In this document: positions 3,477 through 31,912 of the stretch, one piece after another
Layout of the letters: every line of letters begins with the position of its first letter
Position numbering within the stretch: position 1 is the first letter of the stretch
NCBI RefSeq assembly: GCF_016820655.1
Contig: NZ_WSFT01000053.1
Coordinates: 62,001-126,000 of the forward strand
DNA length: 64,000 bases
Source: Anaeromonas frigoriresistens
GTDB taxonomy: Bacteria; Bacillota; Clostridia; Tissierellales; SIT17
Reading direction: 5' to 3'
Notes under the pieces: model-generated
What the model was told of the DNA's origin: nothing
Databases searched by the model: none
Seen by the model: only the letters and a program-made list of their open reading frames with translations
Made by a program: the position numbers and the translations under genes

Positions 3477-4559
3477 ATGTATAAACTTAATCAAAATAAC
3501 AACGAACTAGAAAAAATTACAATGACTACATTTTCAGATAACAATTTAAAAGAAAGAGATAATATAGAAGAATGGATAAGAAAAGACTCATCTATACTAG
3601 GAGAAGAAATTATTATTATTGCTCATGAGTATGATAAATTTGAAGTTAACGAAAGACTAGATTTATTAGGTTTAGATAAAGATGGTAATCTAGTAATAAT
3701 TGAAGTTAAAAGGGATAAGACAGGTGGAAATGTTGATTTTCAAGCACTTAAATATTGTTCATATTGCTCTAATCTAACACCGAATGAAATTGTAGATATA
3801 TATGATGAGTATTTAAAAAAATTCAATATAGAGGAAGATGCACTTGATAATATAATGAATTTTTTAGAAGTAGACTCTGAAGATTTATTGAATGGACTAT
3901 TAAATTCATCTCAAAGAATTATAATTATTGGAAAAGAAATAGATAAACGAATTTTATCGGTATGTGCGTGGTTATCACAAAACAATATTGATATAAAATG
4001 TCAATCAATTGTTCCATATCTAATAAATAATAATGAAGAAATAATTATTGATGTTAATCAAATTATACCTCCATATAATATAGAGGATTATTTTATAAAC
4101 AAGAAAAAAGTTAATAAATCAAAAGGAAAAATAGTGCAATCAGATGAAGTAATACATTTCTTTAATAAAATAGTTTCTATGGCAAATGAACGAGGACATA
4201 AGGCTTATTATAATAATAGAAAACCATATGTCAAGATTTATTCAGGAATAGATAGTAATTTAGTTTTTGCGCTTGTTTATAAGAAGAGAGAAGGACAATT
4301 CAGATTAGAACTTTCTGCAAGGAACAGTATAGTATCAGAAAAACTAAATGATATATATTTTGCCAAAAAAGAATATATTGAAAATGAATTACAATATTCC
4401 TGTGAAGTAAAAGAAGGGGTAAAAAATTCAGATTGGTTAAGAGTTTATAAAGAGATGAGTTGTGATATGAATAAAGGGTTAATTAATTACACTGAAGAGG
4501 TAGGAGTTATGTTTATAAAGTTTGTAGAAGTACTAAAAAAATACTTATCTAAGATATAA
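3477..4559 (+). CDS. PD-(D/E)XK nuclease-like protein (NucS/DUF91-type core, DUF4268-like C-terminus)
   Basis: A 360-residue protein. The N-terminal core has RLDLLGLDKDGNLVIIEVKR: Asp62, Glu76 and Lys78 fit the D...ExK metal site of the PD-(D/E)XK superfamily, closest in wording to NucS/DUF91 proteins. A following alpha/beta part (to about residue 195) fits the same domain. The C-terminal third (about 225-360) looks like the DUF4268 domain often fused to such nucleases. The start is preceded by AAAGGGGG. It is alone on its strand with a bidirectional terminator behind it. Probable roles are DNA defence or mismatch/ssDNA cleavage; target unknown. Nuclease fold is fairly sure from the motif, DUF4268 assignment less so. 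Confidence 0.7.
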   Translation: MYKLNQNNNELEKITMTTFSDNNLKERDNIEEWIRKDSSILGEEIIIIAHEYDKFEVNERLDLLGLDKDGNLVIIEVKRDKTGGNVDFQALKYCSYCSNLTPNEIVDIYDEYLKKFNIEEDALDNIMNFLEVDSEDLLNGLLNSSQRIIIIGKEIDKRILSVCAWLSQNNIDIKCQSIVPYLINNNEEIIIDVNQIIPPYNIEDYFINKKKVNKSKGKIVQSDEVIHFFNKIVSMANERGHKAYYNNRKPYVKIYSGIDSNLVFALVYKKREGQFRLELSARNSIVSEKLNDIYFAKKEYIENELQYSCEVKEGVKNSDWLRVYKEMSCDMNKGLINYTEEVGVMFIKFVEVLKKYLSKI

Positions 4560-9136: not shown

Positions 9137-9226
9137 GTTAGTCATTTTTAATAAATACAAGTGTTAGTTAGTCATTTTTAATAAATACAAGTGTTAGTTA
9201 GTCATTTTTAATAAATACAAGTGTTA
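9137..9226. repeat. Three tandem 30-bp repeats
   Basis: Three copies with period 30 (starts 9137, 9167, 9197), each containing GTCATTTTTAATAAATACAA, identical in this core. They end about six bases from the ribosome site of the leftward 45-residue peptide, so they form its leader or promoter. Alternatives are iterons or protein-binding sites of the element. Not CRISPR: the units are contiguous with no spacers. Confidence 0.9.
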
Positions 9227-9489
9227 TCTAATCTTAGTTATATGTAAGTGTTTTAAACTATAGTAACACTTTATTTAACTATGTTAGATGTATTTGAATT
9301 AGTCAAAACAATATTTTCCTACTATCTCTTTATAATACTTTGCACTTTGCCATTTTCATCTAATATACGTTTGTCCTACATATAATATATATTCCTTTAT
9401 ATATCTTCAGAAACATGATTTTACTACTTAAAGTATAATATTTTTCTAAAAAATTAGAACATCATAACATAAAACTAATATTAAATAAT

Positions 9490-9833: not shown

Positions 9834-10403
9834 TTGATTACTAGACCTATAGATTTGCAAGAGTATAAAGAAATAATGAAACTTATTACAGATGGATTTA
9901 CATATCAAGAAGATGGGAAAACAAAAAACTTTAGACCTAATCAAAAATTATTCTTAGCTTTAATACTACAAGCTAACTTAGGTTTGAGAATTGGGGATGT
10001 ATTAAGTCTAAAAGTAAGTAATTTTAGAAATGGAAAGTTAATTCTGGAAGAAGAGAAAACCTCTAAAATTCAAAATCGCAAAGTTAATCCACAAATTATA
10101 GAATTGATAAAGGATTATGCTATAGAGAATAGTATTAAATCTAATCAAAAGTTATTTAATAGATTTGGAGTTAGAGCTGTACAAAAACAATTAAGAATTA
10201 TTACTGATTATCTGGAACTGTCAAATATATCAACACATAGCTTTAGAAAAATGTATGCTATACTTCAATATCAAAACAATAATAATAATATAGAACTTGT
10301 AAAGGAATTATTAAATCATTCTAGTATAGCAACAACACAAAGATATATAAGAGTACATCAAGAAGAGATAGACAAAGCAAGTGAGAGTATTTGCATAATG
10401 TAA
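9834..10403 (+). CDS. Small tyrosine recombinase/integrase (catalytic domain only)
   Basis: A 189-residue protein with the catalytic pieces of a tyrosine recombinase: Arg in NLGLRIGDVL, a Lys-bearing beta turn (EEKTSKI), HSFRK (His-x-x-Arg), LLNHSS (the later His) and the nucleophile Tyr in TTQRYIRV. Full integrases usually have another 100-200 residues of arm- and core-binding domains, absent here, so it resembles the short YopP-like recombinases of phage SPbeta type. The start is TTG after AAAGGGG. The operator-like boxes lie just upstream and a strong hairpin just downstream. A truncated second copy of its last 63 residues lies at 14864-15060. Probably acts on the repeats bounding the neighbouring cassette; this is inference. 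Confidence 0.85.
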   Translation: MITRPIDLQEYKEIMKLITDGFTYQEDGKTKNFRPNQKLFLALILQANLGLRIGDVLSLKVSNFRNGKLILEEEKTSKIQNRKVNPQIIELIKDYAIENSIKSNQKLFNRFGVRAVQKQLRIITDYLELSNISTHSFRKMYAILQYQNNNNNIELVKELLNHSSIATTQRYIRVHQEEIDKASESICIM

Positions 10404-11862: not shown

Positions 11863-11940
11863 AACGAAGATTTTATTATATTTTGAATATATTAAGAGGG
11901 TAATGCTGAAATGTTATTCAATTCAAGTAGGAGGAATAAA

Positions 11941-14709
11941 ATGAAGTTATTAAAAAGGAATTTTATTAATAGTATCGTTAAAGAACTAGAAGTTTTAAAC
12001 GGAACAGAATTTGAGTATTTTTGCAGAGATATACTAAATATAATAATTCAAGACGAAGTTATACATAAGGGACACAATTTATTTGCTAAGCCTGTTGGTT
12101 ACACTAGGGATTTTTATGAGGATGATTTTAGCATAGTAGGACAAGCAGGAACTGACAAAGATTACTTTACCAATTATGATAAACCAATTAATGATGCTCT
12201 AAAATGTATTGAAAAATCACAAAAATGCGAGAATATATACTTGTTTTCTAATTTGTATTGTACTGGTAATCATTTTAATAATTTAAAAAGCAAGATTAAG
12301 GATGATAAAAGATTTAAAAATAAAAAAATATATGTATATGATGCTCAAAGAATTGGTGAAGTAATATTTGAAAATTTAACACACAATAAAGTTGATGATA
12401 TTCTAAAGTACACACCTATTGCATCAGAAATATACAAAATATTACCTAATAATAACAAGTTACCAGGATATAAAAACCACTATTATTCAAGAGAAGAAGA
12501 ACAAGAGATAATAAATCAATTGGAAAAAGTTGATTTAATTCAAATATATGGTTTAAGTGGGGTAGGTAAGACAGAGATTAGTATTAAAATAGCCAGTGAG
12601 TTAAAAAACTCATTTGATGCTATTTTATGGATAAGTAGTGATTTGCAAAATAATAATATTATTAATTTTAGTAGTATTAGATTAGATAATTATGGTCAAA
12701 AAGTTAATATTGAATACTTTATTGAAAAATACAGTGTTTTAGTAATTATTGATAACTTAAACAATAATGTAACTAATATAAAAAAGCAGTTTAAAAAAAT
12801 AAATAAAAATAAATCTAAACTAATTATTACCTCATTGCAAAAAGATTTACATGAGAGTGAAGTTTATAAATTAGATGGTGTTAATAAAAGTATTTCGAAA
12901 CGAATATTAAATGAATGCTATCCAAATCCTATCAAAAATCAGTTAGAAAAGATTATTAATAAAGTAAATGGTTACCCATTAGTATTAAATCTAATAAAAA
13001 ATGGAATTAATAATGATGATTTTAATTGGGACGATATTTCTAGTGATATTGATGATATACATAGTATTGATGATGAAAACAATATGAAAATATGTACCCG
13101 ATTAATAGGGAGATATTTGGATAACTATCAAAAAGAACTATCTTCTCTTAACTACTTAAACTCTACTAAGATACATGTAGAATTTATCAAATATTTACTA
13201 AGTTCTATTAAAGTTCGCAATCTAACTAAGAGAAATATAATTAACGATAATAATGAATACTTTACAGTACATCAATTGGTAATGGACTCAATAAATGCAT
13301 TAATTGATGAAAACAAATTTGAAGATAGTTTTGACAAAAAGCTAGTTAGCTTTTTAAAGGAAAAGAATATAATTAAAGATATAAATTATTATACTTTTAT
13401 ATGGACACATAATAATTTGATATATAATAAGTATAATAATAAAAATATTAAAATAGATAAAAAGATTTTACTATATGCAATCATAATGTCTAAAGATTAC
13501 TTTTCAGAAGCTAAAGAAATAATAAGTAAAATTGAGACAGTGAACTTAGACTTGAATAATTATTATGATATTGCAATATACATTGAAAAATGCGAATTAG
13601 ACTTATTATTAACTAAAAAAGAAAGTAAAGAAGAATATGAACTCAAAGCTAAAGAGTATATAAATAAACTTGTAAATATTGAACAAACAAAAGAATTAGA
13701 TTTAGAAACAAAAGTTTTAGTTTTTCATCATATTGGTAAAATATATAAATGGATTAATTATTTAACTGAAGCTAAGAACTACTTACTAAAGACTCTTGAT
13801 ATGAATAATGAATATTATCAATCTATGTTACAATTAGCAAGAATATATGTATCTAAAAAGGAATTAGATGAAAGTATTGATTATTTTAATATTGTTTTGG
13901 GAAGTGATAATACTTCAAATGTCCCAATTACAATAGTATTGTCATTTTATGATTTGTTACATCAAAAGGTATGTTCAGACATAAAGTATAAATATATCTA
14001 TAAAGATATTAATAAATTTATTAAAATTTTATTAATATCTTTACATTCAGAATTTGACCAACCATATAGAATAATTAATAAATTTGCTAGAGACTTGTCA
14101 TATAATTTTCCAGAACAATTCAATATCTTGTGTGAAAATTTGCCATATCCTCAATACATAAATGAAAATAAAACTATATGTAAGTCTTATGCAGAAATTT
14201 TTTCATCGTATTATAATATGATTAAATATAATCAGATTATAACTAAAGAAGAAGAGAAAAATGAAAAAATGAAAGAAATATTTAAAATTAGCGAAAAATT
14301 TTTTCTTAGAAGTGATATTAATAAAGATTATGATAGGAAATTATTAATGGACTTATATATTAAAGCAGAAGAATATGAATTGGCTAAGGAGTATTCAGAG
14401 GTTTTTGATGATAAATCACAACCATTTTACTTGCAAAACATGTGTAAAGTTGAAAGAGGATTAAAGAATTATGAAGAAGCACTAAACTATATTAATCAAG
14501 CAATAGAAAAAGGCAAAGAAAAGAAAGTAAGTGGGTACTTTCAAAGTGCCTTTCTACATGATAAAGCAAATACTGAATTTATGATGAATGATGAAGAATG
14601 TACTAACACCTTAAAAGAAGCTATTAGGATGCAAAGAAATATGAAAACATTAAGCATTTGGGAGGAGAAATTAATAAATTGGAAAAGTGAATTTAATATA
14701 GAAAAATAA
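11941..14709 (+). CDS. STAND ATPase: N-terminal nuclease-like domain, NB-ARC, TPR-like repeats
   Basis: A 922-residue protein from ATG 11941, chosen because AGGAGG sits seven bases upstream; ATG 11911 is possible. Residues about 20-160 (GTEFEYFCRDIL at the start) resemble the entry helix of Mrr-like PD-(D/E)XK domains, but a convincing E-x-K is not visible. The NB-ARC core has Walker A GLSGVGKT (204-211), Walker B VLVIIDN (D271), LIITSLQ, and GYPLVLNL (344-351). The C-terminal 500 residues are helical with TPR-like units such as LDESIDYFNIVLG and YEEALNYINQAIEKG. This is the STAND layout of ligand-sensing, oligomerising ATPases such as Avs defence proteins. A hairpin terminator follows. It is probably co-transcribed with the HNH-RES gene. 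Confidence 0.75.
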   Translation: MKLLKRNFINSIVKELEVLNGTEFEYFCRDILNIIIQDEVIHKGHNLFAKPVGYTRDFYEDDFSIVGQAGTDKDYFTNYDKPINDALKCIEKSQKCENIYLFSNLYCTGNHFNNLKSKIKDDKRFKNKKIYVYDAQRIGEVIFENLTHNKVDDILKYTPIASEIYKILPNNNKLPGYKNHYYSREEEQEIINQLEKVDLIQIYGLSGVGKTEISIKIASELKNSFDAILWISSDLQNNNIINFSSIRLDNYGQKVNIEYFIEKYSVLVIIDNLNNNVTNIKKQFKKINKNKSKLIITSLQKDLHESEVYKLDGVNKSISKRILNECYPNPIKNQLEKIINKVNGYPLVLNLIKNGINNDDFNWDDISSDIDDIHSIDDENNMKICTRLIGRYLDNYQKELSSLNYLNSTKIHVEFIKYLLSSIKVRNLTKRNIINDNNEYFTVHQLVMDSINALIDENKFEDSFDKKLVSFLKEKNIIKDINYYTFIWTHNNLIYNKYNNKNIKIDKKILLYAIIMSKDYFSEAKEIISKIETVNLDLNNYYDIAIYIEKCELDLLLTKKESKEEYELKAKEYINKLVNIEQTKELDLETKVLVFHHIGKIYKWINYLTEAKNYLLKTLDMNNEYYQSMLQLARIYVSKKELDESIDYFNIVLGSDNTSNVPITIVLSFYDLLHQKVCSDIKYKYIYKDINKFIKILLISLHSEFDQPYRIINKFARDLSYNFPEQFNILCENLPYPQYINENKTICKSYAEIFSSYYNMIKYNQIITKEEEKNEKMKEIFKISEKFFLRSDINKDYDRKLLMDLYIKAEEYELAKEYSEVFDDKSQPFYLQNMCKVERGLKNYEEALNYINQAIEKGKEKKVSGYFQSAFLHDKANTEFMMNDEECTNTLKEAIRMQRNMKTLSIWEEKLINWKSEFNIEK

Positions 14710-14863: not shown

Positions 14864-15060
14864 TCTATTTGGAGCTATCAAATATATCTACTCATAGTTT
14901 TAGAAAAATGTATGTTTTATTTATTTATCAACATAATGAGAATAATATTGAGCTTGTAAAGGAACTATTAAATCATTATAGCATAGCAACAAAACAAAGA
15001 TATATCAGAGCGCATCAAGAAGAGATAGACAAAGCAAGTGAGAGTATTTATATAATGTAA
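14864..15060 (+). pseudogene. C-terminal remnant of a second tyrosine recombinase
   Basis: Encodes the last 63 residues of a close homologue of the recombinase at 9834, including HSFRK, LLNHYS and the RYIRAHQEEIDKASES tail. Homology begins abruptly near 14864 (compare 10211). It lacks the first catalytic Arg and Lys, so it cannot recombine by itself. A hairpin terminator follows. It shows that this block once carried, or recombined with, its own integrase copy. Confidence 0.9.
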
Positions 15061-18302: not shown

Positions 18303-19628
18303 ATGAAGGACAACGATATCCAAATTCCAAGAGAAGAACCTTTTAAAAATGATATATTAAACAGGAAACCAATCGCTGAAAACTTTACTAAAATTTTTAA
18401 TAATATGGATGGGAATTTAGTTGTTGGAATAGATGCTCCTTGGGGAACCGGTAAAACAACATTTATAAAAATGTGGAAAGAATATTTAGCATCCATAGAG
18501 GACTATAAAACAATATATTTTAATGCTTGGGAAAATGATGATAGTGATGACCCATTATTAGCCATAATTTATCAATTAGAAGAACAGTATAATGGGAAAA
18601 ATGATAAAATTGATAACATTAAAAAATATGGTGCTCAACTTATTAAGAAAACTGTGCCAATTGGACTAAGATTACTAACTAATGGAATTTTGGATGTTAA
18701 AGATGTTAAATTAGGTGAGTTCAATGAAAGTGAATTTGTAGATTTGGCTGGTAAATTAGGAGAAGTAGAATATAGTAAGTTTAAGCAAAGTAAAAACGCA
18801 AAAAGTGAATTTAAAAAAACTTTAATAGAATTTCAAAAAGAGCAAAATAAGAAAATAATTTTTTTCATTGATGAGCTAGATAGATGTAGACCTTCTTTTG
18901 CTATAGAAACACTAGAGAAGATAAAACATTTATTTGATATTGATAATTACTTTTTTATTATTTCTTTAGATAAGCAACAACTTTCTTGTTCTATTTCTAC
19001 TTTATATGGACAAGATATGGACTCACTAGGATATCTAAGAAGATTTATAGATTTGGATTACAGTTTACCGATTCCAGATAAAAGAAATTATGTTGAAATG
19101 ATGATTAATACATATAAACTTAATAGAGATAATTGGTTTTGGGTATATCTTAAAAAGATGATTGACTTAATGGATTATAGCTTAAGAGATATTGACAAAT
19201 TATTTTATTATTTAAAAATCATATTACCATCTACAATTTTTCATAAGGATGGTAAAGAATATTCAGACGCCTATTCAGCTGTAATGGGGATTGTATATTC
19301 TTTTTTAATATCAATAAAGTTAAAAAAACCTTTATTGTATAATAAAATAGTTTTAAAAAATTATAAAACTTCATCACTTATAAATGAAATCAATATAAAT
19401 GATATTAAATTGGATAAATATTTTAATAATCAATTACGATTAATAATGATTGATACATTATCAGCTTTCTTAAATAGGAACTTAAAAAGTAACGCTGAAT
19501 CCAAATATGAAGATTTTAATTTGAAATTTGATTCAATTTATGGTGAATATAACTTAAATCGATTATGGGAAAATAATAAGTGTATTGTAATTAATCAATT
19601 AGATTTTCTAGACAATTTTTTTATATAG
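18303..19628 (+). CDS. KAP-family P-loop NTPase
   Basis: A 441-residue protein. VVGIDAPWGTGKTTFIKMW holds Walker A (K51, T52) and KIIFFIDELDRCRP holds Walker B (D190, E191), both in the wording typical of KAP NTPases, with YFNAWENDD between them. No membrane spans are evident in the visible insertion, unlike many KAP proteins, but a separate membrane protein is encoded two genes later. The KAP family includes PifA of plasmid F, which blocks phage T7. ATG is preceded by a purine-rich AAGAAGGGGTGGGGG. It heads a three-gene rightward group with 19706 and 20948. Confidence 0.85.
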   Translation: MKDNDIQIPREEPFKNDILNRKPIAENFTKIFNNMDGNLVVGIDAPWGTGKTTFIKMWKEYLASIEDYKTIYFNAWENDDSDDPLLAIIYQLEEQYNGKNDKIDNIKKYGAQLIKKTVPIGLRLLTNGILDVKDVKLGEFNESEFVDLAGKLGEVEYSKFKQSKNAKSEFKKTLIEFQKEQNKKIIFFIDELDRCRPSFAIETLEKIKHLFDIDNYFFIISLDKQQLSCSISTLYGQDMDSLGYLRRFIDLDYSLPIPDKRNYVEMMINTYKLNRDNWFWVYLKKMIDLMDYSLRDIDKLFYYLKIILPSTIFHKDGKEYSDAYSAVMGIVYSFLISIKLKKPLLYNKIVLKNYKTSSLINEININDIKLDKYFNNQLRLIMIDTLSAFLNRNLKSNAESKYEDFNLKFDSIYGEYNLNRLWENNKCIVINQLDFLDNFFI

Positions 19629-21502: not shown

Positions 21503-21743
21503 TTTAACTAATATAATTACTAAATATATCCATTAAGCTAGATTTACTTTTGAAATTTTTATTTTTATTATAATATAAAAACTGTTATAATTAGACTATG
21601 ATATACTGAAAAATTCACTATATCTGAACTACGGTTTTTATGAAAATTTAAAATCTTAGTTGAACTACGATATACATAATAAAAAAATAGAGAAATTTTA
21701 TATCAATGATATTTTCAATCTATACCTTTTAAATGTTGTAATC

Positions 21744-21860
21744 ATGACATTTAAAGACATCAAAACTATGGAAAAACTTATAGATGCATTAGAAGATAAT
21801 GACGATGTTCAAGAAGTTTATCATAACTGGGACATGCCTGAGGATATGGAAGAAGAATAA
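21744..21860 (+). pseudogene. yebC: 3' end of yebC (pmpR), displaced fragment
   Basis: The last 38 codons read [18 protein letters not shown] then [20 protein letters not shown], which is the C-terminus of YebC/PmpR-family regulators. The other 200 or so residues are absent. The frame extends upstream to TTG 21660 with unrelated residues. A strong terminator follows at once, as expected for the true end of the gene. yebC commonly lies beside bofC/ruvC in Clostridia, and both occur further right. It is best read as the chromosomal side of an integration junction, with the rest of yebC expected left of the window. Confidence 0.8.
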
Positions 21861-21875
21861 TTATATAGCATAATA

Positions 21876-21914
21876 AAACACCTCTAAAATCTATAGATTT
21901 TAGAGGTGTTTTTA
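21876..21914 (+). terminator. Intrinsic terminator of yebC
   Basis: ACACCTCTAAAAT and its exact reverse complement enclose a short loop, followed by GTTTTTAA, 16 bases after the yebC stop. Confidence 0.9.
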
Positions 21915-21965
21915 ATTTTTGAAAGTAAAAACTGTTAATATATGGTATGATTAACATAAATAAAA

Positions 21966-21990
21966 ATATCTGACAATTCAGATGTTTTTA
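21966..21990 (+). terminator. Small hairpin before the 22038 gene
   Basis: ATCTGA-CAAT-TCAGAT followed by GTTTTTATTTA. Possible terminator or leader structure of the downstream gene. Confidence 0.45.
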
Positions 21991-22037
21991 TTTATAGGAA
22001 AATTTATTTGAAATTTTATAAAGTGGGGAGGAAAATA

Positions 22038-22583
22038 ATGGATAAGGTGATTTTTATACTTTTTGGGATTTTCTATATTATTTATGGACTTATTGTTATT
22101 AGTGGTAAAAAGTTTATGGTGAGAAGCAAGTATGAAGCAATAATTCAAAACTTTTTTTTCTTAGCAATTATCATCTCGCGATTTATTGAAATTGATGGTG
22201 GAATATTTATAATATCTATTTTCATACTAATATTTGCTTTAATATTTCTAGGACAGAGAGGAGTCTATACCATGTATAATGTAAATGGTGAAACTTTCTC
22301 ATCAATTCTTATGAGTATTTTAGAGGAGAAAAACATATCATATGTGGTTAATAAAGATGAATTAGTATTAAAAGGTTATAATAATGAGGTTATATTTTAC
22401 CGCAAACCTCTTAATTCATTACAAATTAATTTAAAAGAGATAAGACACTTAGATTTCTATAAAGAATTATTAAAAGAGCTATCAAATCAAATTAAAGAAG
22501 TAAACTTGAAATTATTTCCTACAGCAGGGATTGTAGATTTATTATTAGGAATTGGATTTTTAGCTTTAGTTCAATTTATGTAA
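22038..22583 (+). CDS. Membrane protein of unknown function
   Basis: A 181-residue protein from ATG 22038, chosen because GGGGAGG lies just upstream. Two or three membrane spans fill the first 80 residues. The following 80-residue soluble part (NGETFSSILMSILEEKNISY) resembles a small alpha/beta domain, and a last hydrophobic helix ends the protein. Not recognised. Confidence 0.55.
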   Translation: MDKVIFILFGIFYIIYGLIVISGKKFMVRSKYEAIIQNFFFLAIIISRFIEIDGGIFIISIFILIFALIFLGQRGVYTMYNVNGETFSSILMSILEEKNISYVVNKDELVLKGYNNEVIFYRKPLNSLQINLKEIRHLDFYKELLKELSNQIKEVNLKLFPTAGIVDLLLGIGFLALVQFM

Positions 22584-22600
22584 ATTATGGGGGATGGAAA

Positions 22601-22712
22601 TGAATAAGAATCTGATTACAGTATTATTAATAACTATTTTGCTGATGAAAAGTCATATCAGGATTTTATAATTGGAATGTAGTATGGAATTTATAATGAA
22701 AGAAGGTTAATT
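22601..22712 (+). pseudogene. Degraded small membrane-protein gene
   Basis: ATG 22601 after GGGGGA starts MNKNLITVLLITILLMKSH and stops after 23 codons. In another frame the text continues FADEKSYQDFIIGM, a TAG, then YGIYNERRLINE. This looks like one short gene damaged by a shift and a stop. Low certainty. Confidence 0.3.
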
Positions 22713-22713
22713 A

Positions 22714-22920
22714 ATGAAAGGGATAAAAAATAATATTAATATTATACTAATAGGTTTAGGAATAATCACTCTTATTATTGAATTTAATTTTTATATGTTT
22801 AATGGTATTTTGGGTTGGTTTTTAACTACTTTAGGAGTAATATTGATAGGACTTGGGATATTTTATAAGTCAAAAAATCCTTTAAAACTTCTATTTGAAA
22901 TTATATTAGAATTATTCTAG
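22714..22920 (+). CDS. Small two-span membrane protein
   Basis: 68 residues with two hydrophobic spans (about 8-27 and 31-50). Weak AGAAGG ribosome site upstream. It sits in a series of small membrane proteins with short gaps, probably one transcript. No family recognised. Confidence 0.4.
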   Translation: MKGIKNNINIILIGLGIITLIIEFNFYMFNGILGWFLTTLGVILIGLGIFYKSKNPLKLLFEIILELF

Positions 22921-22932
22921 GGGGTCTTACAT

Positions 22933-23121
22933 ATGATAGATGATAAAAAAGTAAATTTAATAGTAGTTTTTATTCAATTAATTATTTGGATTTATATTGC
23001 TGTTACATTAATGATCTATGAAACATATAAAATTAGTCATCTTATTTCTTTTATTCTACTATTATTTACTTATATCATTATAATAATAAGATATATAAAA
23101 AATAAAAGGAGTAATCGATGA
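22933..23121 (+). CDS. Small two-span membrane protein
   Basis: 62 residues with two hydrophobic spans (about 7-27 and 34-54) and a basic tail. GGGGG overlaps the preceding stop region and serves as ribosome site. Last gene before the terminator at 23193. Confidence 0.4.
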   Translation: MIDDKKVNLIVVFIQLIIWIYIAVTLMIYETYKISHLISFILLLFTYIIIIIRYIKNKRSNR

Positions 23122-23192
23122 AGAAAGATTTAATTATTTTTTAGTGTTATATATTTTCATATAAAAGAGTACTTTAAAAAAATTGATTAATC

Positions 23193-23224
23193 AAAAACAG
23201 GACCTGATTCAGGTCCTGTTTTTA
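23193..23224. terminator. Bidirectional terminator
   Basis: AACAGGACCTGA-TT-CAGGTCCTGTT with T run on the right and A run on the left. It serves the rightward small genes and the leftward gene that ends at 23225. Confidence 0.85.
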
Positions 23225-23434
23225 TTATTGATGACAAGGCCCTTTAGTATCGTTCACTTGAGTGCCAGAGTAAGGATTATAATTTAATTCTGATGTTCTT
23301 TTGTAGGACTCTAAGAACATTTCAAGATTGGTTTTTAGATCCTTTTCTGAACTAGATGCTTTTAGGGCTCTTTTTATGACCTGTTTTGGATATTTTTCTC
23401 TTAATTTTTTCCTTTCTTTTCTACTTATTTTCAT
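23225..23434 (-). CDS. Small hypothetical protein
   Basis: 69 residues, very basic at the N-terminus (MKISRKERKKLREKYPKQV) with a helical middle and a Pro/Gly/Thr-rich tail ending GPCHQ. A weak AAGGAT ribosome site precedes the ATG. It shares the terminator at 23193. Unrecognised; could be a nucleic-acid-binding or spore-associated peptide. Confidence 0.45.
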   Translation of the reverse strand: MKISRKERKKLREKYPKQVIKRALKASSSEKDLKTNLEMFLESYKRTSELNYNPYSGTQVNDTKGPCHQ

Positions 23435-23687
23435 AATATCACGATCCTTTTATCTCTATATTTATATTATATTACAAAATCCAGTGAATTAGCTTTTAAA
23501 TATTTTTAATATTCTGTATACTTCATTATTTATTAAAGTTTTAGGAATTATTTTTTTGTACAAGAATATACATATAAAAATAATAAATTTAATTTTAAAG
23601 ACAAGTCATAGTATTTAAAATGAGAAAGGAGGAATAGTTTCGAAACTTAAGCTTTGAAAAATAGTATTAAATGAGGGGGAATTTTTG

Positions 23688-24845
23688 ATGAAGAAGCTAT
23701 TAAGTTTAACATTGATTTTAGTAATGGTACTAAGTTTAGCTGCTTGTGGAGGGGACTCAGCTAGTGATAAACCCAAAGGAGATTGGAAAATAGGTATTAT
23801 GACTGGTACTGTATCTCAGAATGAAGAAGAATATAGAGCTGCTGAAAGAGTATTAGAGAAGTATGGAGAAGATAGAGTTATTATCCAAACTTATCCTGAT
23901 CAATTTATGAAAGAGCAAGAAACTACTATTGCTAACATAGTTAGTATGGCATCTGATCCTAAGGTTAAAGCTATAGTAATTGTTCAAGGTATTCCTGGAA
24001 CATCTGCTGCTATAGATAAGGTTAAGGAAATGAGAGAAGATATCCTGTTTGTAGTAGGAACTGCTGGTGAAGATCCAAATATGATCGCTTCAAAAGCAGA
24101 TGTAGTATTCCAAATGGATGAATTAGGAATGGGTACAGCTGTTATAGAACAGGCTAAGAAGCAAGGAGCAGAAACATTTGTTCATTATTCATTCCCTAGA
24201 CATATGTCATATGCATTATTAGCTGCAAGAAGAGATTTATTTAAAGAGACTTGTGAAGAATTAGGTTTAGAGTTTGTAGATGCAACTGCACCAGACCCAA
24301 CAGGAGATGCTGGAGTATCTGGAGCACAACAGTTTATATTAGAAGATGTTCCTAGAAAGATATCAGAGTATGGTGAAAATACTGCTCTATTTGCTACAAA
24401 TTGCTCTATGCAAGAACCTTTAATTAAATCAGCATTAACTGAAGGAGCTATTTTACCACAACAATGTTGTCCATCTCCATTCCACGGATATCCAGGAGCT
24501 TTAGGAATAGAAATTCCTGAAGATAAAAAAGGTGATATTAATTTTATTATAGATGAAATCAGTGGAAAAATTGAAGAAGGTGGCGGAAAGGGAAGATTCT
24601 CTACTTGGCCAGTACCTATGAATATGATGTTTGTTGAAGCTGGAGCAGAATATGCAAAAGCATATATAGAGGGTGACACTGATGGTAAATTAGACGTAGA
24701 TAAAGTAACAGAGAAATTTAATGAATATGTAAAAGAGAATGCAGGAATGGAAATAGATATGACTATAGTTCCTTATACAGATGAAAATACAGAGAAGACT
24801 TATGATAACTATTTAATGATTTTATCTGATTTTATTGATTTTTAA
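23688..24845 (+). CDS. DUF3798-family substrate-binding lipoprotein
   Basis: A 385-residue exported lipoprotein from ATG 23688, eight bases after GAGGGGG. The signal peptide ends in lipobox LAAC (C20), giving a lipid anchor on the outer membrane face. The mature part (DWKIGIMTGTVSQNEEEYRAAE onward, split here by motif) matches the DUF3798 family, periplasmic-binding-protein-like folds found beside sugar/nucleoside-type ABC transporters. Ligand unknown. Three transporter genes follow on the same strand after an attenuator-like hairpin, so this protein is likely made in excess. The gap 23435-23687 shows only promoter-type AT-rich sequence. Confidence 0.8.
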   Translation: MKKLLSLTLILVMVLSLAACGGDSASDKPKGDWKIGIMTGTVSQNEEEYRAAERVLEKYGEDRVIIQTYPDQFMKEQETTIANIVSMASDPKVKAIVIVQGIPGTSAAIDKVKEMREDILFVVGTAGEDPNMIASKADVVFQMDELGMGTAVIEQAKKQGAETFVHYSFPRHMSYALLAARRDLFKETCEELGLEFVDATAPDPTGDAGVSGAQQFILEDVPRKISEYGENTALFATNCSMQEPLIKSALTEGAILPQQCCPSPFHGYPGALGIEIPEDKKGDINFIIDEISGKIEEGGGKGRFSTWPVPMNMMFVEAGAEYAKAYIEGDTDGKLDVDKVTEKFNEYVKENAGMEIDMTIVPYTDENTEKTYDNYLMILSDFIDF

Positions 24846-24860
24846 TAGTTAATCAAATAT

Positions 24861-24884
24861 AAGGCTATCTGGTCAGATAGCCTT
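24861..24884 (+). terminator. Attenuator-like hairpin inside the ABC operon
   Basis: AAGGCTATCT-GGTC-AGATAGCCTT, a perfect ten-base stem with only a weak ATATAATTT tail. It lies between binding-protein and ATPase genes and probably lowers read-through or stabilises the upstream mRNA end. Confidence 0.6.
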
Positions 24885-24925
24885 ATATAATTTACTCTCC
24901 GATAATATAGAAGGGGGATTGGCAG

Positions 24926-26530
24926 ATGAGCAATGTTGCTTTGGAAATGAAAAATATTGAAAAAGAATATTTTAATAATAAAGTATTAAAAGGTATAGAC
25001 TTAAAGATCAAACCTGGAGAAATTCATGCCATATTAGGAGAAAATGGAGCAGGGAAGTCTACTTTAATGAATATATTATTTGGCATGCCTGTTATTCACT
25101 CTACTGGTGGATATACTGGTGATATATTAATTGATGGGAAAAAAGTGGACATAAAGTCCCCTAAAGAAGCTATGGATTTAGGCATAGGAATGGTACACCA
25201 AGAGTTCATGTTGATTCCTGGATTTACAATAACTGAAAATGTAAAATTAAACAGAGAAAAAAGTAAGAGTAATTTAATAAGTAAAATATTAGGTGAGAAG
25301 TTAGAAACTTTAGATGTGAAATCTATGAATCAAGATACGAGAAAAGCTTTGGATAAATTAGAAATGGATATTGAAGAGTGGTCAATGGTAGAGGGATTAC
25401 CAGTAGGATATAAACAATTTATTGAGATTGCAAGAGAAATAGATAAAAGTAATATTAAAGTGCTTGTATTTGATGAACCTACAGCTGTCCTTACTGAAAG
25501 TGAAGCTGAGAATCTATTATCAGCTATGAAAAAATTAGCAACTGATGGAATAGCAATAGTATTTATTACCCACAGGTTAGAAGAAGTTATGATGGTTTCA
25601 GACAATATTACTATTCTTAGAGACGGAGAATTAGTTGCCTCTAAGCCAAAAAAAGATACAAATATCATTGAATTAGCTCAACTGATGGTAGGAAGAAAAA
25701 TAGAAAAGATAGCTAATGCTGAAAGTAATGAAGAGGAATTTAAAAATAAAAAAGTAATACTTTCTATTAAAAATTTTGAAGTTGATATGCCTGGAGAAAC
25801 AGCTAAAGGGATTAATTTAGAGGTTAGAAAAGGAGAAATCTTAGGTATTGGTGGTTTAGCTGGTCAAGGAAAGATAGGCATTGCTAATGGTCTTATGGGA
25901 TTATATGAATCTAGTGGAGAAGTGACAATAAACAATAAAAAATTAAACTTAAATGATACTACTGAATCCTTAAATAAAGGGTTATCTTTTGTATCAGAAG
26001 ACAGACGAGGGGTAGGGTTACTTTTAGATACTTCTATTGAAATGAATATAGTACTTACTGCAATTCAAATGCAAGGAAGGTATATTTCAAAAATTGGTCC
26101 CTTTACACAAAAGTCCAAAAAAGAAATCAGAAGTCATGCTTTAAAAATGATTAAGGATCTTGATATTAGATGTAGAGGCCCGGAACAAATTACTAGAAGA
26201 TTGAGTGGTGGGAATCAGCAGAAGGTATGTATAGCTAGGGCGTTAACCTTAAAACCTGATATTTTGCTAGTCTCTGAACCTACTCGTGGTATAGATATAG
26301 GGGCTAAAAAACTAGTGTTAGATTTATTATATAAACTCAATAAAGAATTGGGAATGACTATAATAATGACCTCTAGTGAACTAGCAGAGCTAAGAACAAT
26401 ATGTCATAGAATCGCAATAATAGCAGAAGGAAAAGTAGAGGGTATATTAAGTCCTGATGAAAGTGATGTAACCTTTGGATTAATGATGGCCGGTGAATAT
26501 AACAAAATAAATAAAAAGGGGGCTTTATAA
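24926..26530 (+). CDS. ABC transporter ATPase, two fused nucleotide-binding domains
   Basis: A 534-residue cytoplasmic ATPase of the sugar/nucleoside (RbsA/YufO-like) type. The first half has GENGAGKST (K44, S45), a degenerate signature (PVGYKQFIEIAREI) and VLVFDEPTAVLT. The second half has a degenerate Walker A (GLAGQGK) and a clean signature RLSGGNQQKVCIARAL with ILLVSEPTRGID. One functional ATP site per half-pair is usual for this group. Ribosome site GAAGGGGG. It ends just before the permease start at 26531. Confidence 0.85.
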   Translation: MSNVALEMKNIEKEYFNNKVLKGIDLKIKPGEIHAILGENGAGKSTLMNILFGMPVIHSTGGYTGDILIDGKKVDIKSPKEAMDLGIGMVHQEFMLIPGFTITENVKLNREKSKSNLISKILGEKLETLDVKSMNQDTRKALDKLEMDIEEWSMVEGLPVGYKQFIEIAREIDKSNIKVLVFDEPTAVLTESEAENLLSAMKKLATDGIAIVFITHRLEEVMMVSDNITILRDGELVASKPKKDTNIIELAQLMVGRKIEKIANAESNEEEFKNKKVILSIKNFEVDMPGETAKGINLEVRKGEILGIGGLAGQGKIGIANGLMGLYESSGEVTINNKKLNLNDTTESLNKGLSFVSEDRRGVGLLLDTSIEMNIVLTAIQMQGRYISKIGPFTQKSKKEIRSHALKMIKDLDIRCRGPEQITRRLSGGNQQKVCIARALTLKPDILLVSEPTRGIDIGAKKLVLDLLYKLNKELGMTIIMTSSELAELRTICHRIAIIAEGKVEGILSPDESDVTFGLMMAGEYNKINKKGAL

Positions 26531-27571
26531 ATGACAAGTAGTTTAAAAAGAATGATCAATACATTAGGCCTTCCTAGATTGATAATAATCAGTTTTTTCT
26601 TTTTACTTATTATATTGGCATATGTCTTAAAATTACCTGTGAGTATATTAATGGAGGATACATTAGTAAGGATAGGTATGAATGGTGTATTAGTTTTAGC
26701 TATGGTACCAGCAATACTATCAGGAACCGGGCCAAACTTTGGACTGCCCCTAGGAATAATTTGTGGTTTGTTAGGGGGCTTAATAAGTATTGAACTTAAC
26801 TTAACCGGTTTAACAGGTTTTTTTGCAGCCATCGCAATTTCTATTCCTTTTGCACTAATAATAGGATATTTATATGCGAAAATATTAAATGCAGTAAAAG
26901 GATCAGAGATGATGGTAGCTACTTATACTGGATTTTCAGCAGTGTTTTTTATGAGTATTGCTTGGATATTAATGCCTTTTAAAAGCCCTGAGATGATTTG
27001 GCCCATAGGTAAAGGGTTGAGGGTAACTATATCATTAGATGGTAGATATGCACAAATATTAAATAAAATTGCCCCTGTTTCTATTGGAAATATTACTATT
27101 CCAACAGGGCTTTTAGCTTTCTTCTTAATGCTATGCCTAATAGTTTGGGTTTTCTTAAGAAGTAAGACTGGTATATCAATGAAAGCAGCGGGGGATAACC
27201 CTAAGTTTGCAGTAGCTTCTGGTATCAATGTGAATAATGCAAGGACAGTAGGTACTATATTATCTACTGTTTTGGGAGCTATTGGTATATTGGTATATGC
27301 TCAAAGTTATGGTTTTTTACAATTATATCAAGCACCTTTAATGATGGCTTTCCCAGCAGTAGCTGCAATTCTAATAGGAGGAGCTTCTGCACAGAGGGCA
27401 AAAATTTCTCATGTTATATTAGGTGTTTTATTGTTCCAAGGTTTATTAACAATATCATTACCTGTAGCCAATAAGATAGTAAGTGAGGGTAATTTATCTG
27501 AAGTTGCTAGAATGATAATTCAGAACGGAATTATCCTATATGCTTTAACAAAAGTAGGGGGTGATGATTAA
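26531..27571 (+). CDS. ABC transporter permease, BPD_transp_2 type
   Basis: A 346-residue inner-membrane protein with about nine or ten hydrophobic spans. It has the sugar/nucleoside permease features of this family: a conserved GDNPKFAVASGI loop near residue 220 and a Gly-rich ILIGGASAQRAKIS segment near 285. It begins at the next base after the ATPase stop, so the two are translationally coupled, and pairs with the next permease. Confidence 0.85.
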   Translation: MTSSLKRMINTLGLPRLIIISFFFLLIILAYVLKLPVSILMEDTLVRIGMNGVLVLAMVPAILSGTGPNFGLPLGIICGLLGGLISIELNLTGLTGFFAAIAISIPFALIIGYLYAKILNAVKGSEMMVATYTGFSAVFFMSIAWILMPFKSPEMIWPIGKGLRVTISLDGRYAQILNKIAPVSIGNITIPTGLLAFFLMLCLIVWVFLRSKTGISMKAAGDNPKFAVASGINVNNARTVGTILSTVLGAIGILVYAQSYGFLQLYQAPLMMAFPAVAAILIGGASAQRAKISHVILGVLLFQGLLTISLPVANKIVSEGNLSEVARMIIQNGIILYALTKVGGDD

Positions 27572-27572
27572 T

Positions 27573-28886
27573 ATGACAACTTCAAATGATTTATTGAAGG
27601 AGAGTATTAATAACGAAACATTAGGAAAAAAGACGAAAAAAATTATGTTTAATAATATGGTTACTATTATATTTGTAATTTTATGTTTAATTGGAGTAGT
27701 ACTATCTAAATTGCCTATATCTTTTATTTTAAATGAGTTAGTAACAAGAATCACTAGAAATTCTTTTCTTGTATTAGCTCTTATAATTCCGGTATTAGCT
27801 GGTATGGGTTTGAACTTTAGTATTGTAGTGGGAGCTATGGCAGGTCAAATAGCTATCATTTGTGTAACTCATTGGGGAATAACAGGTCTTAATGGCTTTC
27901 TTTTAGCTATAGCCTTAGCATTTCCAATAGCATTATTATTAGGGCTTTTAACTGGAAAGTTATTAAATAAAACCAAAGGACAAGAAATGATTGCTAGCAT
28001 GATCACTGGCTTTTTTGCTAATGGTATCTATCAATTAATATTTTTATTTTTAGTAGGTACATTAATACCTATGAAAAATCCAGTACTAATGCTTAGTGGA
28101 GGAGTTGGGATTAGAAATACTATAGATTTATCCGGGGGAGTTAAAGCTACAGGTATTAAATATGCTTTAGATGATATCATTAAGCTTCCTTTATTTCAGG
28201 TACTCCTAGTTAGTTGTGTAGTCAGCATAATTATATACTCTTATCTTTATTTTAGGAGCAAAAAAGATTCCTATAAAAATACATTAAGTAAAAGTAAATA
28301 TATAACTACTATGATACTTTTAGTTATTGGCATTGGAGTATCTATATATGTAATTACAAGTAACTCACTTGTTAGTATGATCAAATTACCTTTAGTTACT
28401 ATGTTAGTGATTGTGGCTTTATGTGCGTTTAATCTTCTTATAGTCAAAACAAAAATAGGTCAAGAGTTTAGAACAGTAGGTCAGGATAAACATATTGCTA
28501 AGGTATCTGGAATTAATGTAAGCAGGATAAGGGTACTTGCAATTGTTATTTCTATAGTCTTGGCTGCTTGGGGACAGATTATATTCCTACAAAACTTAGG
28601 GACATTAAACACTTATGGTAGTCATGAGCAAATTGGTATGTTTTCTATAGCAGCTTTACTTATTGGGGGGGCTTCAGTATCTAAAGCAACCATAGGTCAG
28701 GCCATTTTAGGAACAACTTTATTCCACACCCTATTTATAGTATCACCCTTAGCGGGAAAAAATTTATTTGGGGATGCTCAAATAGGGGAATTTTTCAGAG
28801 CTTTCGTTGCTTATGGAGTAATAGGAGTCTCATTGGGATTACATGCCTGGAAAAAAAGAGTTCAATTAAGAAGGAAAAAATTATAA
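27573..28886 (+). CDS. ABC transporter permease, second subunit
   Basis: A 437-residue membrane protein from ATG 27573, with AGGGGGTGAT upstream inside the end of the previous gene; GTG 27561 is a less likely start. It has the same family pattern as the first permease (GQDKHIAKVSGINV, LLIGGASVSKATIG) plus a central insertion with a charged loop at about 225-240. It forms the heterodimeric channel of the DUF3798-linked importer. Two hairpins follow. Confidence 0.85.
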   Translation: MTTSNDLLKESINNETLGKKTKKIMFNNMVTIIFVILCLIGVVLSKLPISFILNELVTRITRNSFLVLALIIPVLAGMGLNFSIVVGAMAGQIAIICVTHWGITGLNGFLLAIALAFPIALLLGLLTGKLLNKTKGQEMIASMITGFFANGIYQLIFLFLVGTLIPMKNPVLMLSGGVGIRNTIDLSGGVKATGIKYALDDIIKLPLFQVLLVSCVVSIIIYSYLYFRSKKDSYKNTLSKSKYITTMILLVIGIGVSIYVITSNSLVSMIKLPLVTMLVIVALCAFNLLIVKTKIGQEFRTVGQDKHIAKVSGINVSRIRVLAIVISIVLAAWGQIIFLQNLGTLNTYGSHEQIGMFSIAALLIGGASVSKATIGQAILGTTLFHTLFIVSPLAGKNLFGDAQIGEFFRAFVAYGVIGVSLGLHAWKKRVQLRRKKL

Positions 28887-30606: not shown

Positions 30607-31200
30607 ATGAAAAATTCTTCTAAAATTTTTTATCTATCTATAGGATTGATTTTTTCAGTAGTAGTTTTGGTTTTTACAATTTTAGAAATAGGATTTGATA
30701 AGAATTCAAATGATAATATCACCAAGGAGAATGAAGAGAATGAAAGTATGGATGAATTATTAACTACTGAAATAAATGGAAGTGAAGGGAAAGAAATCAC
30801 TGAGGATACTATCATCGAATATGATATTTTTTATACTAAATGTGAGCATAACATAAGAGATTTCCAGGTAAATAAGAATGATTATATTGGAATGAACAGA
30901 AAAGCTTTAGAAGATAGCTTTGATGAAGAGTCCAATAAAGAGGTTTTAAAATTTGATTCTAATAGAGTGGTAATTAAACAAGTAAAGGATAGCTTATGTC
31001 CAGATCATTATATTGTTGGTGAAAATGAAGGTAAGGTTGCCATATATAAAATAGATGAGAATGGTGATAGGGTATTGTTCAAAACTTTAGAACAATCTAT
31101 TCAATTATTAGGTGAATATGATAAAGAGAGATTAAGAAATGGAATAGTTGTAGATGACTTAGATGATATAGGAGAAGTTATAGAAAATTTTATAAGTTAA
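30607..31200 (+). CDS. BofC C-terminal-domain protein
   Basis: A 197-residue protein with one N-terminal membrane span (residues 9-27) and an acidic linker. The extracytoplasmic domain with SNRVVIKQVKDSLCPDHYIVG and GKVAIYKIDENGDRVLFKT matches the BofC C-terminal domain. In Bacillus, BofC slows activation of sigma-K signalling during sporulation; clostridial relatives of this form commonly sit just before ruvC, as here. Ribosome site AGGAGGG. A terminator follows. Confidence 0.75.
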   Translation: MKNSSKIFYLSIGLIFSVVVLVFTILEIGFDKNSNDNITKENEENESMDELLTTEINGSEGKEITEDTIIEYDIFYTKCEHNIRDFQVNKNDYIGMNRKALEDSFDEESNKEVLKFDSNRVVIKQVKDSLCPDHYIVGENEGKVAIYKIDENGDRVLFKTLEQSIQLLGEYDKERLRNGIVVDDLDDIGEVIENFIS

Positions 31201-31417: not shown

Positions 31418-31912
31418 ATGATAATAGTAGGGATAGATCCAGGTATTGCTATAGTTGGATATGGAGTAGTTGAATATAAAGGAAATAACTTTAAAGTTAT
31501 AGATTATGGTGCAATAACTACCCCTTCAACAATGAGTTCACCAGCACGATTAAAATCTGTTTATGATGATTTGACAGAAGTTTTATTGAAATATAAACCT
31601 GATGCAGTAGCTATAGAAGAACTATTTTTCAATAAAAATGTAAAAACAGCTATACAGGTAGGACAAGCTAGAGGTGTTGAGATATTAGCAGCTATGAATC
31701 AGAAATTAGATATATTTGAGTATACTCCTCTACAAGTAAAGCAAGGAGTTGTTGGCTATGGTAGAGCTAAGAAAAGACAAGTTCAAGAGATGGTAAAGAT
31801 ATTATTGAACTTAAAAGAAATACCTAAACCTGATGATGTAGCAGATGCCCTTGCAGTAGCTATATGTCATGCTCACTCAGGACAATTTGATAGCTTATTT
31901 AGAATGAAATAA
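31418..31912 (+). CDS. ruvC: Holliday junction resolvase RuvC
   Basis: A 164-residue endonuclease that cuts four-way DNA junctions as a dimer in the RuvABC complex. [12 protein letters not shown] gives the first catalytic Asp (D7), [10 protein letters not shown] the Glu, and [14 protein letters not shown] the last acidic pair. Length is normal. Ribosome site AGGAGAGG. First gene of ruvC-ruvA-ruvB, 12 bases before ruvA. Confidence 0.97.

Follow-up and report, generated by a model that had tools for sequence, protein, structure and literature searches.

This locus poses the question of why the last codons of yebC stand alone and where the rest of the gene lies. We analysed a window of 64,000 nucleotides (C10:62001-126000; C10 is a 549-kb contig of a 3.2-Mb genome in 53 contigs), and positions without a contig name refer to this window. 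Translation of 21753-21860 (+ strand) gave the last 35 codons of YebC and the stop codon, in frame, as the C-terminal part of an open reading frame at 21660-21860. The match to PF01709 covers only positions 133-160 of the 160 in the profile (33 bits, cut-off 27). A palindromic hairpin with a T-run was read from the sequence at 21878-21913 (+), and a hairpin of like kind was read shortly 3' of the yebC stop codon in three congeners (G001-G003); the hairpin in the window is probably the original terminator of the host yebC. The isolated yebC 3' end proposed in a sequence-only reading of this DNA is real. The ATG at 21744 was rejected as part of yebC because similarity to the congeners begins further in, at 21749 for G001 and G003 and at 21753 for G002. 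The remainder of yebC was not found inside the window.

The intact yebC and its adjoining integrase gene

A genome-wide search with PF01709 returned two matches on the same contig, the stranded fragment and a full yebC (C10:57080-57553). The complete frame of the latter (C10:56837-57580, 247 aa) lies to the left of the window, and its product scores above the cut-off of the NCBIfam YebC equivalog (370.7 bits against 243). The part shared by the two copies begins at AAAGACAT, which is at C10:57476 in the intact gene and at C10:83753 in the fragment, a spacing of 26,277 bp. Over C10:57476-57561 the intact copy is identical to the stranded one at 79 of 86 bases (92%), so the repeat is not due to chance (two-sequence BLAST, E 1e-31). 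Beyond the repeat the tails differ, the intact copy ending in MPSDLDE and the fragment in MPEDMEEE before the stop codon. The earlier reading had named as checks a yebC to the left with a missing or replaced 3' end and a direct repeat of part of 21744-21860; we found the gene, with a tail of its own, and the repeat within it.

A gene for an XerC/D-like tyrosine recombinase (C10:57790-58689, TTG start) begins 209 nt after the stop codon of the intact yebC; the longest frame begins at C10:57754. The protein contains PF00589 (100.8 bits) and PF02899 (34.7 bits). Its closest NCBIfam models are those of the XerC and XerD recombinases (158.7 and 149.3 bits), but these scores are far under the curated cut-offs of 335.15 and 329.6 bits, and it is not an XerC or XerD equivalog.

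We conclude, with a probability of roughly 0.9, that the fragment is the attR of a site-specific island of ~26.3 kb in the 3' end of yebC. The integration within the 3' part of the gene that had been proposed for this DNA is supported by the split gene, the repeat, the adjoining integrase gene and the uninterrupted yebC of the congeners, all directly visible in the sequences, as is the recurrence of the arrangement in other genera described below. We infer that the recombinase encoded at C10:57790-58689 carried out the insertion.

Gene order in relatives, which the earlier reading had named as a check, agrees with this conclusion: G001-G003 each have a single, uninterrupted yebC. The operon at 23685-28886 lies within ~300 bp of yebC in G001 and G003, and other genes are found there in G002. 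The two copies differ at 7 of the 86 sites, giving 21 comparisons with the three congeners, in which the congener base matched the stranded copy 13 times, the intact copy twice and neither copy 6 times. Both matches to the intact copy come from G003 (2 of its 7 differing sites). When the 5' part of yebC was joined to the stranded end, a 248-codon frame resulted that aligns through the junction with yebC of G001, G002 and G003, to within at most 7 bases of the stop codon. In its tail and in the bases that follow, the intact copy resembles an element in another genome, G038. The 13 versus 2 congener matches argue that the fragment most probably represents the host end that was displaced, and that the tail of the intact gene was supplied by the element. 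An element-supplied end restoring the stop codon had been suggested from the sequence; the differing sites favour it, short of proof, and the G192/G198 pair of genomes described below does not decide the matter.

In the mechanism that we propose, the attP of the element would have contained a yebC-like 3' end of its own, and recombination between this attP and the 3' end of the chromosomal yebC would have been catalysed by the recombinase encoded at the left end of the island. The 5' part of the host gene would be retained, and the 3' end, the stop codon and a new terminator would come from the element. YebC would thereby stay complete, at 247 aa as compared to 248 in the rebuilt empty site, and the original 3' end, together with its terminator, would be displaced to the far side of the island.

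Cargo and surroundings of the island

The right part of the island occupies 1-21752. The left part, beyond the left edge of the window, contains the integrase gene and genes for a methyltransferase and a Sau3AI-type endonuclease. The GC content of the island is 25.2%, versus 31.9% and 29.7% in the flanks. The Sau3AI-family endonuclease passes its NCBIfam model (NF040973; 534.1 bits, cut-off 300), and the C5-methyltransferase on the same island matches PF00145 (224.7 bits). Two genes belong to PADLOC candidate families: 3477-4559 (+) to PDC-S11 (E 2.3e-156), with a NucS-like nuclease domain (NucS_C, 20.5 bits, below the Pfam cut-off of 24), and 18303-19628 (+), encoding a KAP-type NTPase (PF07693, 135.2 bits), to PDC-S20 (E 2.7e-108). 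A 932-aa NB-ARC/TPR protein (11911-14709, +; PF00931, 30 bits, cut-off 23.5) had no PADLOC match. Further cargo consists of HNH-domain proteins and unknowns. The island likely carries anti-phage genes, and a part of it, but not the whole, fits the description of this region as defence-rich.

A Pfam scan of 18 island ORFs revealed no relaxase or secretion gene of the kind found in ICEs and IMEs, and no phage structural family. Comparison of four island proteins (6059, the integrase, 10936 and 1386) and the small ORF 15622 with PHROGs gave integrase and nuclease matches and a single weak match to a terminase small subunit, on the nuclease part of an HNH protein. No RDF gene was identified on the island. 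A tRNA was rejected as the target, there being no tRNA within the window.

A second tyrosine recombinase of 189 aa, consisting of the catalytic domain only (PF00589, 55.4 bits), is encoded at 9834-10403 (+). It shares 28-42% identity over 40-74 residues with the integrases found at yebC. Its 3' end is repeated directly (195 nt, 86%; 10209-10403 and 14866-15060), and the two repeats flank the HNH/RES and NB-ARC/TPR genes, perhaps as a nested unit. Upstream of this recombinase gene, 9137-9240 contains a 30-bp unit in tandem, GTTAGTCATTTTTAATAAATACAAGTGTTA.

The chromosome segment with bofC and ruvC that had been placed next to the fragment is present to the right, but it lies ~9 kb further on and is not a direct neighbour. 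We identified bofC at 30607-31200 (PF08955, 22.6 bits, cut-off 21), and we take 31418-31912, from its translation, to be ruvC. Between the yebC terminator and this pair are small ORFs and then the DUF3798/ABC-transporter operon. The ~1.7 kb with small ORFs that precede this operon (21920-23600) are missing there in G001 and G003, a difference for which the proposed insertion does not account.

Recurrence at yebC and the point of crossover

We searched a sample of 249 genomes of the order with the C-terminal part of YebC as the query and found a match in 236, with two matches in six genomes. The second match in G102 lies in a full frame of 298 aa; it was dropped as a displaced end and is likely a paralogue. 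The remaining five genomes with two matches are the source genome, G038, G192, G234 and G238. In G038, both yebC ends are on one contig, a 49-bp stretch read from the sequence is identical at both sides, and the integrase is reduced to a stub. The genes between these ends (L039 5257-12959) presumably serve glycerol uptake and oxidation; with only an integrase stub left between the yebC ends, this element is perhaps a trapped island. G192 has an integrase gene after yebC on one contig and a second yebC end on another. In G234 the second end is also on another contig, and the start of an integrase-like frame was noted by eye after yebC. In G238, yebC runs off the end of its contig, and elsewhere a broken integrase start follows a yebC end.

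We also searched for relatives of the integrase in samples of the order, class and phylum. In each genome, the integrase was scored against no more than 5-9 candidate places, such that relatives may be missed and the counts are minima. At E ≤1e-32, at least 5 of the 249 order genomes were positive: the source genome, G177 (72% identity) and G192 (68%), in which the gene directly follows yebC, and G011 (38%) and G016 (37%), in which it follows a gene with an SSB domain. At E ≤1e-45, at least 4 of 391 genomes of the class sample were found, comprising the source genome and G365 (47%), G535 (46%) and G318 (43%), all three with the integrase gene directly after yebC. A second yebC end is on the same contig ~18 kb, ~12 kb and ~8 kb away in G365, G535 and G318, respectively; those of G535 and G318 had weak protein scores (E 0.002 and 0.004) and are clear in the DNA. 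An integrase profile at E ≤1e-55 recovered at least 3 of 398 genomes of the phylum sample: the source genome, G858, in which the integrase gene follows a FeS_assembly_P gene, and G945 (34% identity), in which it follows a gene that we take to be guaA.

In the order and class samples, every integrase found with 42% identity or more (six, the source included) directly followed yebC, and a second yebC end was seen for five of them; none was found in G177. None of the four relatives with 34-38% identity was at yebC, all of them following other genes. In a tree built from 10 integrases, targeting of yebC requires two changes, and a single change sufficed in 20% of 200 bootstrap trees, so that this targeting may have arisen once or more than once. 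Viral contigs contained one relative of the integrase (24% identity), and the 208 integrase matches in phage records were all below 60% identity. A helicase shared between elements was rejected, the 966-aa protein of the island matching the helicase of G318 with an E value of 0.20; a fragment in G177 has one short stretch in common with that helicase (E 5e-7). The yebC elements in G535, G365 and G318 (L069, L070 and L071) each have a short serine recombinase (PF00239). Beside the yebC integrase of G192, L045 1168-3981 (-) encodes a 937-aa protein that matches the RNA-dependent RNA polymerase family PF05183 (60.7 bits, cut-off 23.8).

A stack of two or more elements at yebC, with the island being the remnant of a merged array and the 3' end having been displaced by an earlier element, is improbable. 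The catalytic-only recombinase inside the island, with the repeat of its own 3' end, would fit such a history, as would G238, where a yebC end directly before another integrase start looks like a tandem junction. Against this, the source genome contains no third yebC end.

A relative of G192, G198, has an empty yebC site. The 400 bases immediately 3' of the yebC stop in G198 agree at 394 positions with the 400 that follow the displaced end in G192, and the sequence after the intact copy in G192 differs from that of G198. This pair of an empty and an occupied site confirms the junction. It does not decide which copy belonged to the host, because the two 50-bp repeat copies in G192 are identical and have three differences from G198 in common. 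Just before the repeat, the displaced copy of G192 has the GACGTTCA of G198 and the intact copy has GATGTACA. Such pairs largely refute the idea that there is no junction and that the fragment in the window stems from an unrelated paralogue or from chance duplication of a yebC end. A second YebC-like match in a full frame, as in G102, speaks for this idea, but the congeners lack a duplication, an integrase gene adjoins the intact copy, and a like layout is found with other integrases elsewhere; we consider this explanation to have almost no chance of being correct.

The repeats in G192, G535, G365 and G318 start at or near GAYGTNCARRA, which encodes a conserved D-V-Q motif, and end at the stop codon. 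The repeat in the source genome starts 51 bp further upstream, with that of G038 in between. Either the place of crossover varies within yebC, or the element has taken up additional yebC sequence. In the latter case, the same island and integrase would have crossed over further downstream, in GAYGTNCARRA, only the last codons would have been displaced, and the stranded copy would owe its more upstream bases to a related yebC from which the element captured them. Related integrases are expected to cut alike, and the common repeat start in the four other genomes is in keeping with this; nonetheless, we regard a downstream crossover as unlikely. Upstream of the motif there are 6 differing sites and 18 comparisons, of which 10 match the stranded copy, 2 the intact copy and 6 neither, and the repeats of streptococcal elements in lysS are reported to lie at different locations within that one gene (PMC4701971).

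Ends of the element and related systems

The right end of the island contains the direct repeats ACTATGATATAC, GAACTACGGTTT and GAACTACGATATAC (21591-21673, +), and its stretch 21561-21669 shares 76% identity with the right end of the element in G038. In 13 end segments (3,008 nt), AAYTAYGRT occurred 13 times in the forward and 0 times in the reverse orientation, and was present in 9 of the 13, with ~0.2 occurrences expected from 82 kb of the source contig; these same ends were the ones from which the motif had been chosen by eye, and some of them are related by descent. A check on four held-out segments gave a weak result: the right end of G234 had one forward TAYGATAWAC and one reverse AAYTAYGRT, and the other three had neither. 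The end repeats are possible arm sites of the integrase.

A hairpin lies between the stop codon of the target gene and the integrase start at all yebC-linked left ends examined (9 of 9) and all sister left ends examined (4 of 4). The folded left-end stretches had z values of -2.3 to -7.9. In 13 of 13 left ends, the 3' arm of the hairpin holds the likely ribosome-binding site of the integrase, as judged by eye, and a T-rich run precedes the start codon. The left-end hairpin may end the repaired host transcript and also hide the start signal of the integrase, which would keep integrase levels low while the element is integrated. More tentatively, and with the odds somewhat against it, these integrases could represent an undescribed group in Bacillota with gene ends, yebC among them, as harbours and a switch made of terminator and ribosome-binding site, combining gene repair and integrase silencing in one RNA.

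Genomic islands that use gene 3' ends as their site are a well-known kind of element; what may be new in detail is yebC as the target, the group of integrases and the arrangement of the hairpin. In the open-licence literature, yebC was not named as an integration site in any title or abstract start that we found, and it is absent from the main text of PMC12884075, PMC5704250 and PMC4701971. Streptococcal ICEs and IMEs in the 3' ends of housekeeping genes such as rplL, rpsI, lysS, rpmG and guaA (PMC4701971, PMC5704250) likewise have a tyrosine integrase, a site at a conserved gene's 3' end, flanking direct repeats and a target product that is little changed. Their repeats are 12-54 bp, compared to 86 bp at 92% in the part shared by the two yebC copies, and the island differs from them in targeting yebC and in having no relaxase or secretion gene in the ORFs scanned. 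GIsul2 and further elements that occupy the 3' end of guaA (PMC5704250) also pair a tyrosine integrase with a gene 3' end, but with guaA in place of yebC.

The results map an attachment site in yebC, a gene matched in nearly all genomes of the order sample, and provide a small set of natural integrases adjoining that site. They help to predict and delimit islands at yebC in other clostridia, and the integrases could serve as tools for site-specific integration in anaerobes whose genetic engineering is difficult. A terminator-like hairpin overlapping the integrase ribosome-binding site is a simple and testable regulatory idea. The presumed guaA upstream of the 34%-identical G945 integrase would be a link to the guaA elements. 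In G024 (L029), a sequence resembling the right-end repeats was noted by eye after an apparently intact yebC, perhaps the scar of a lost element.
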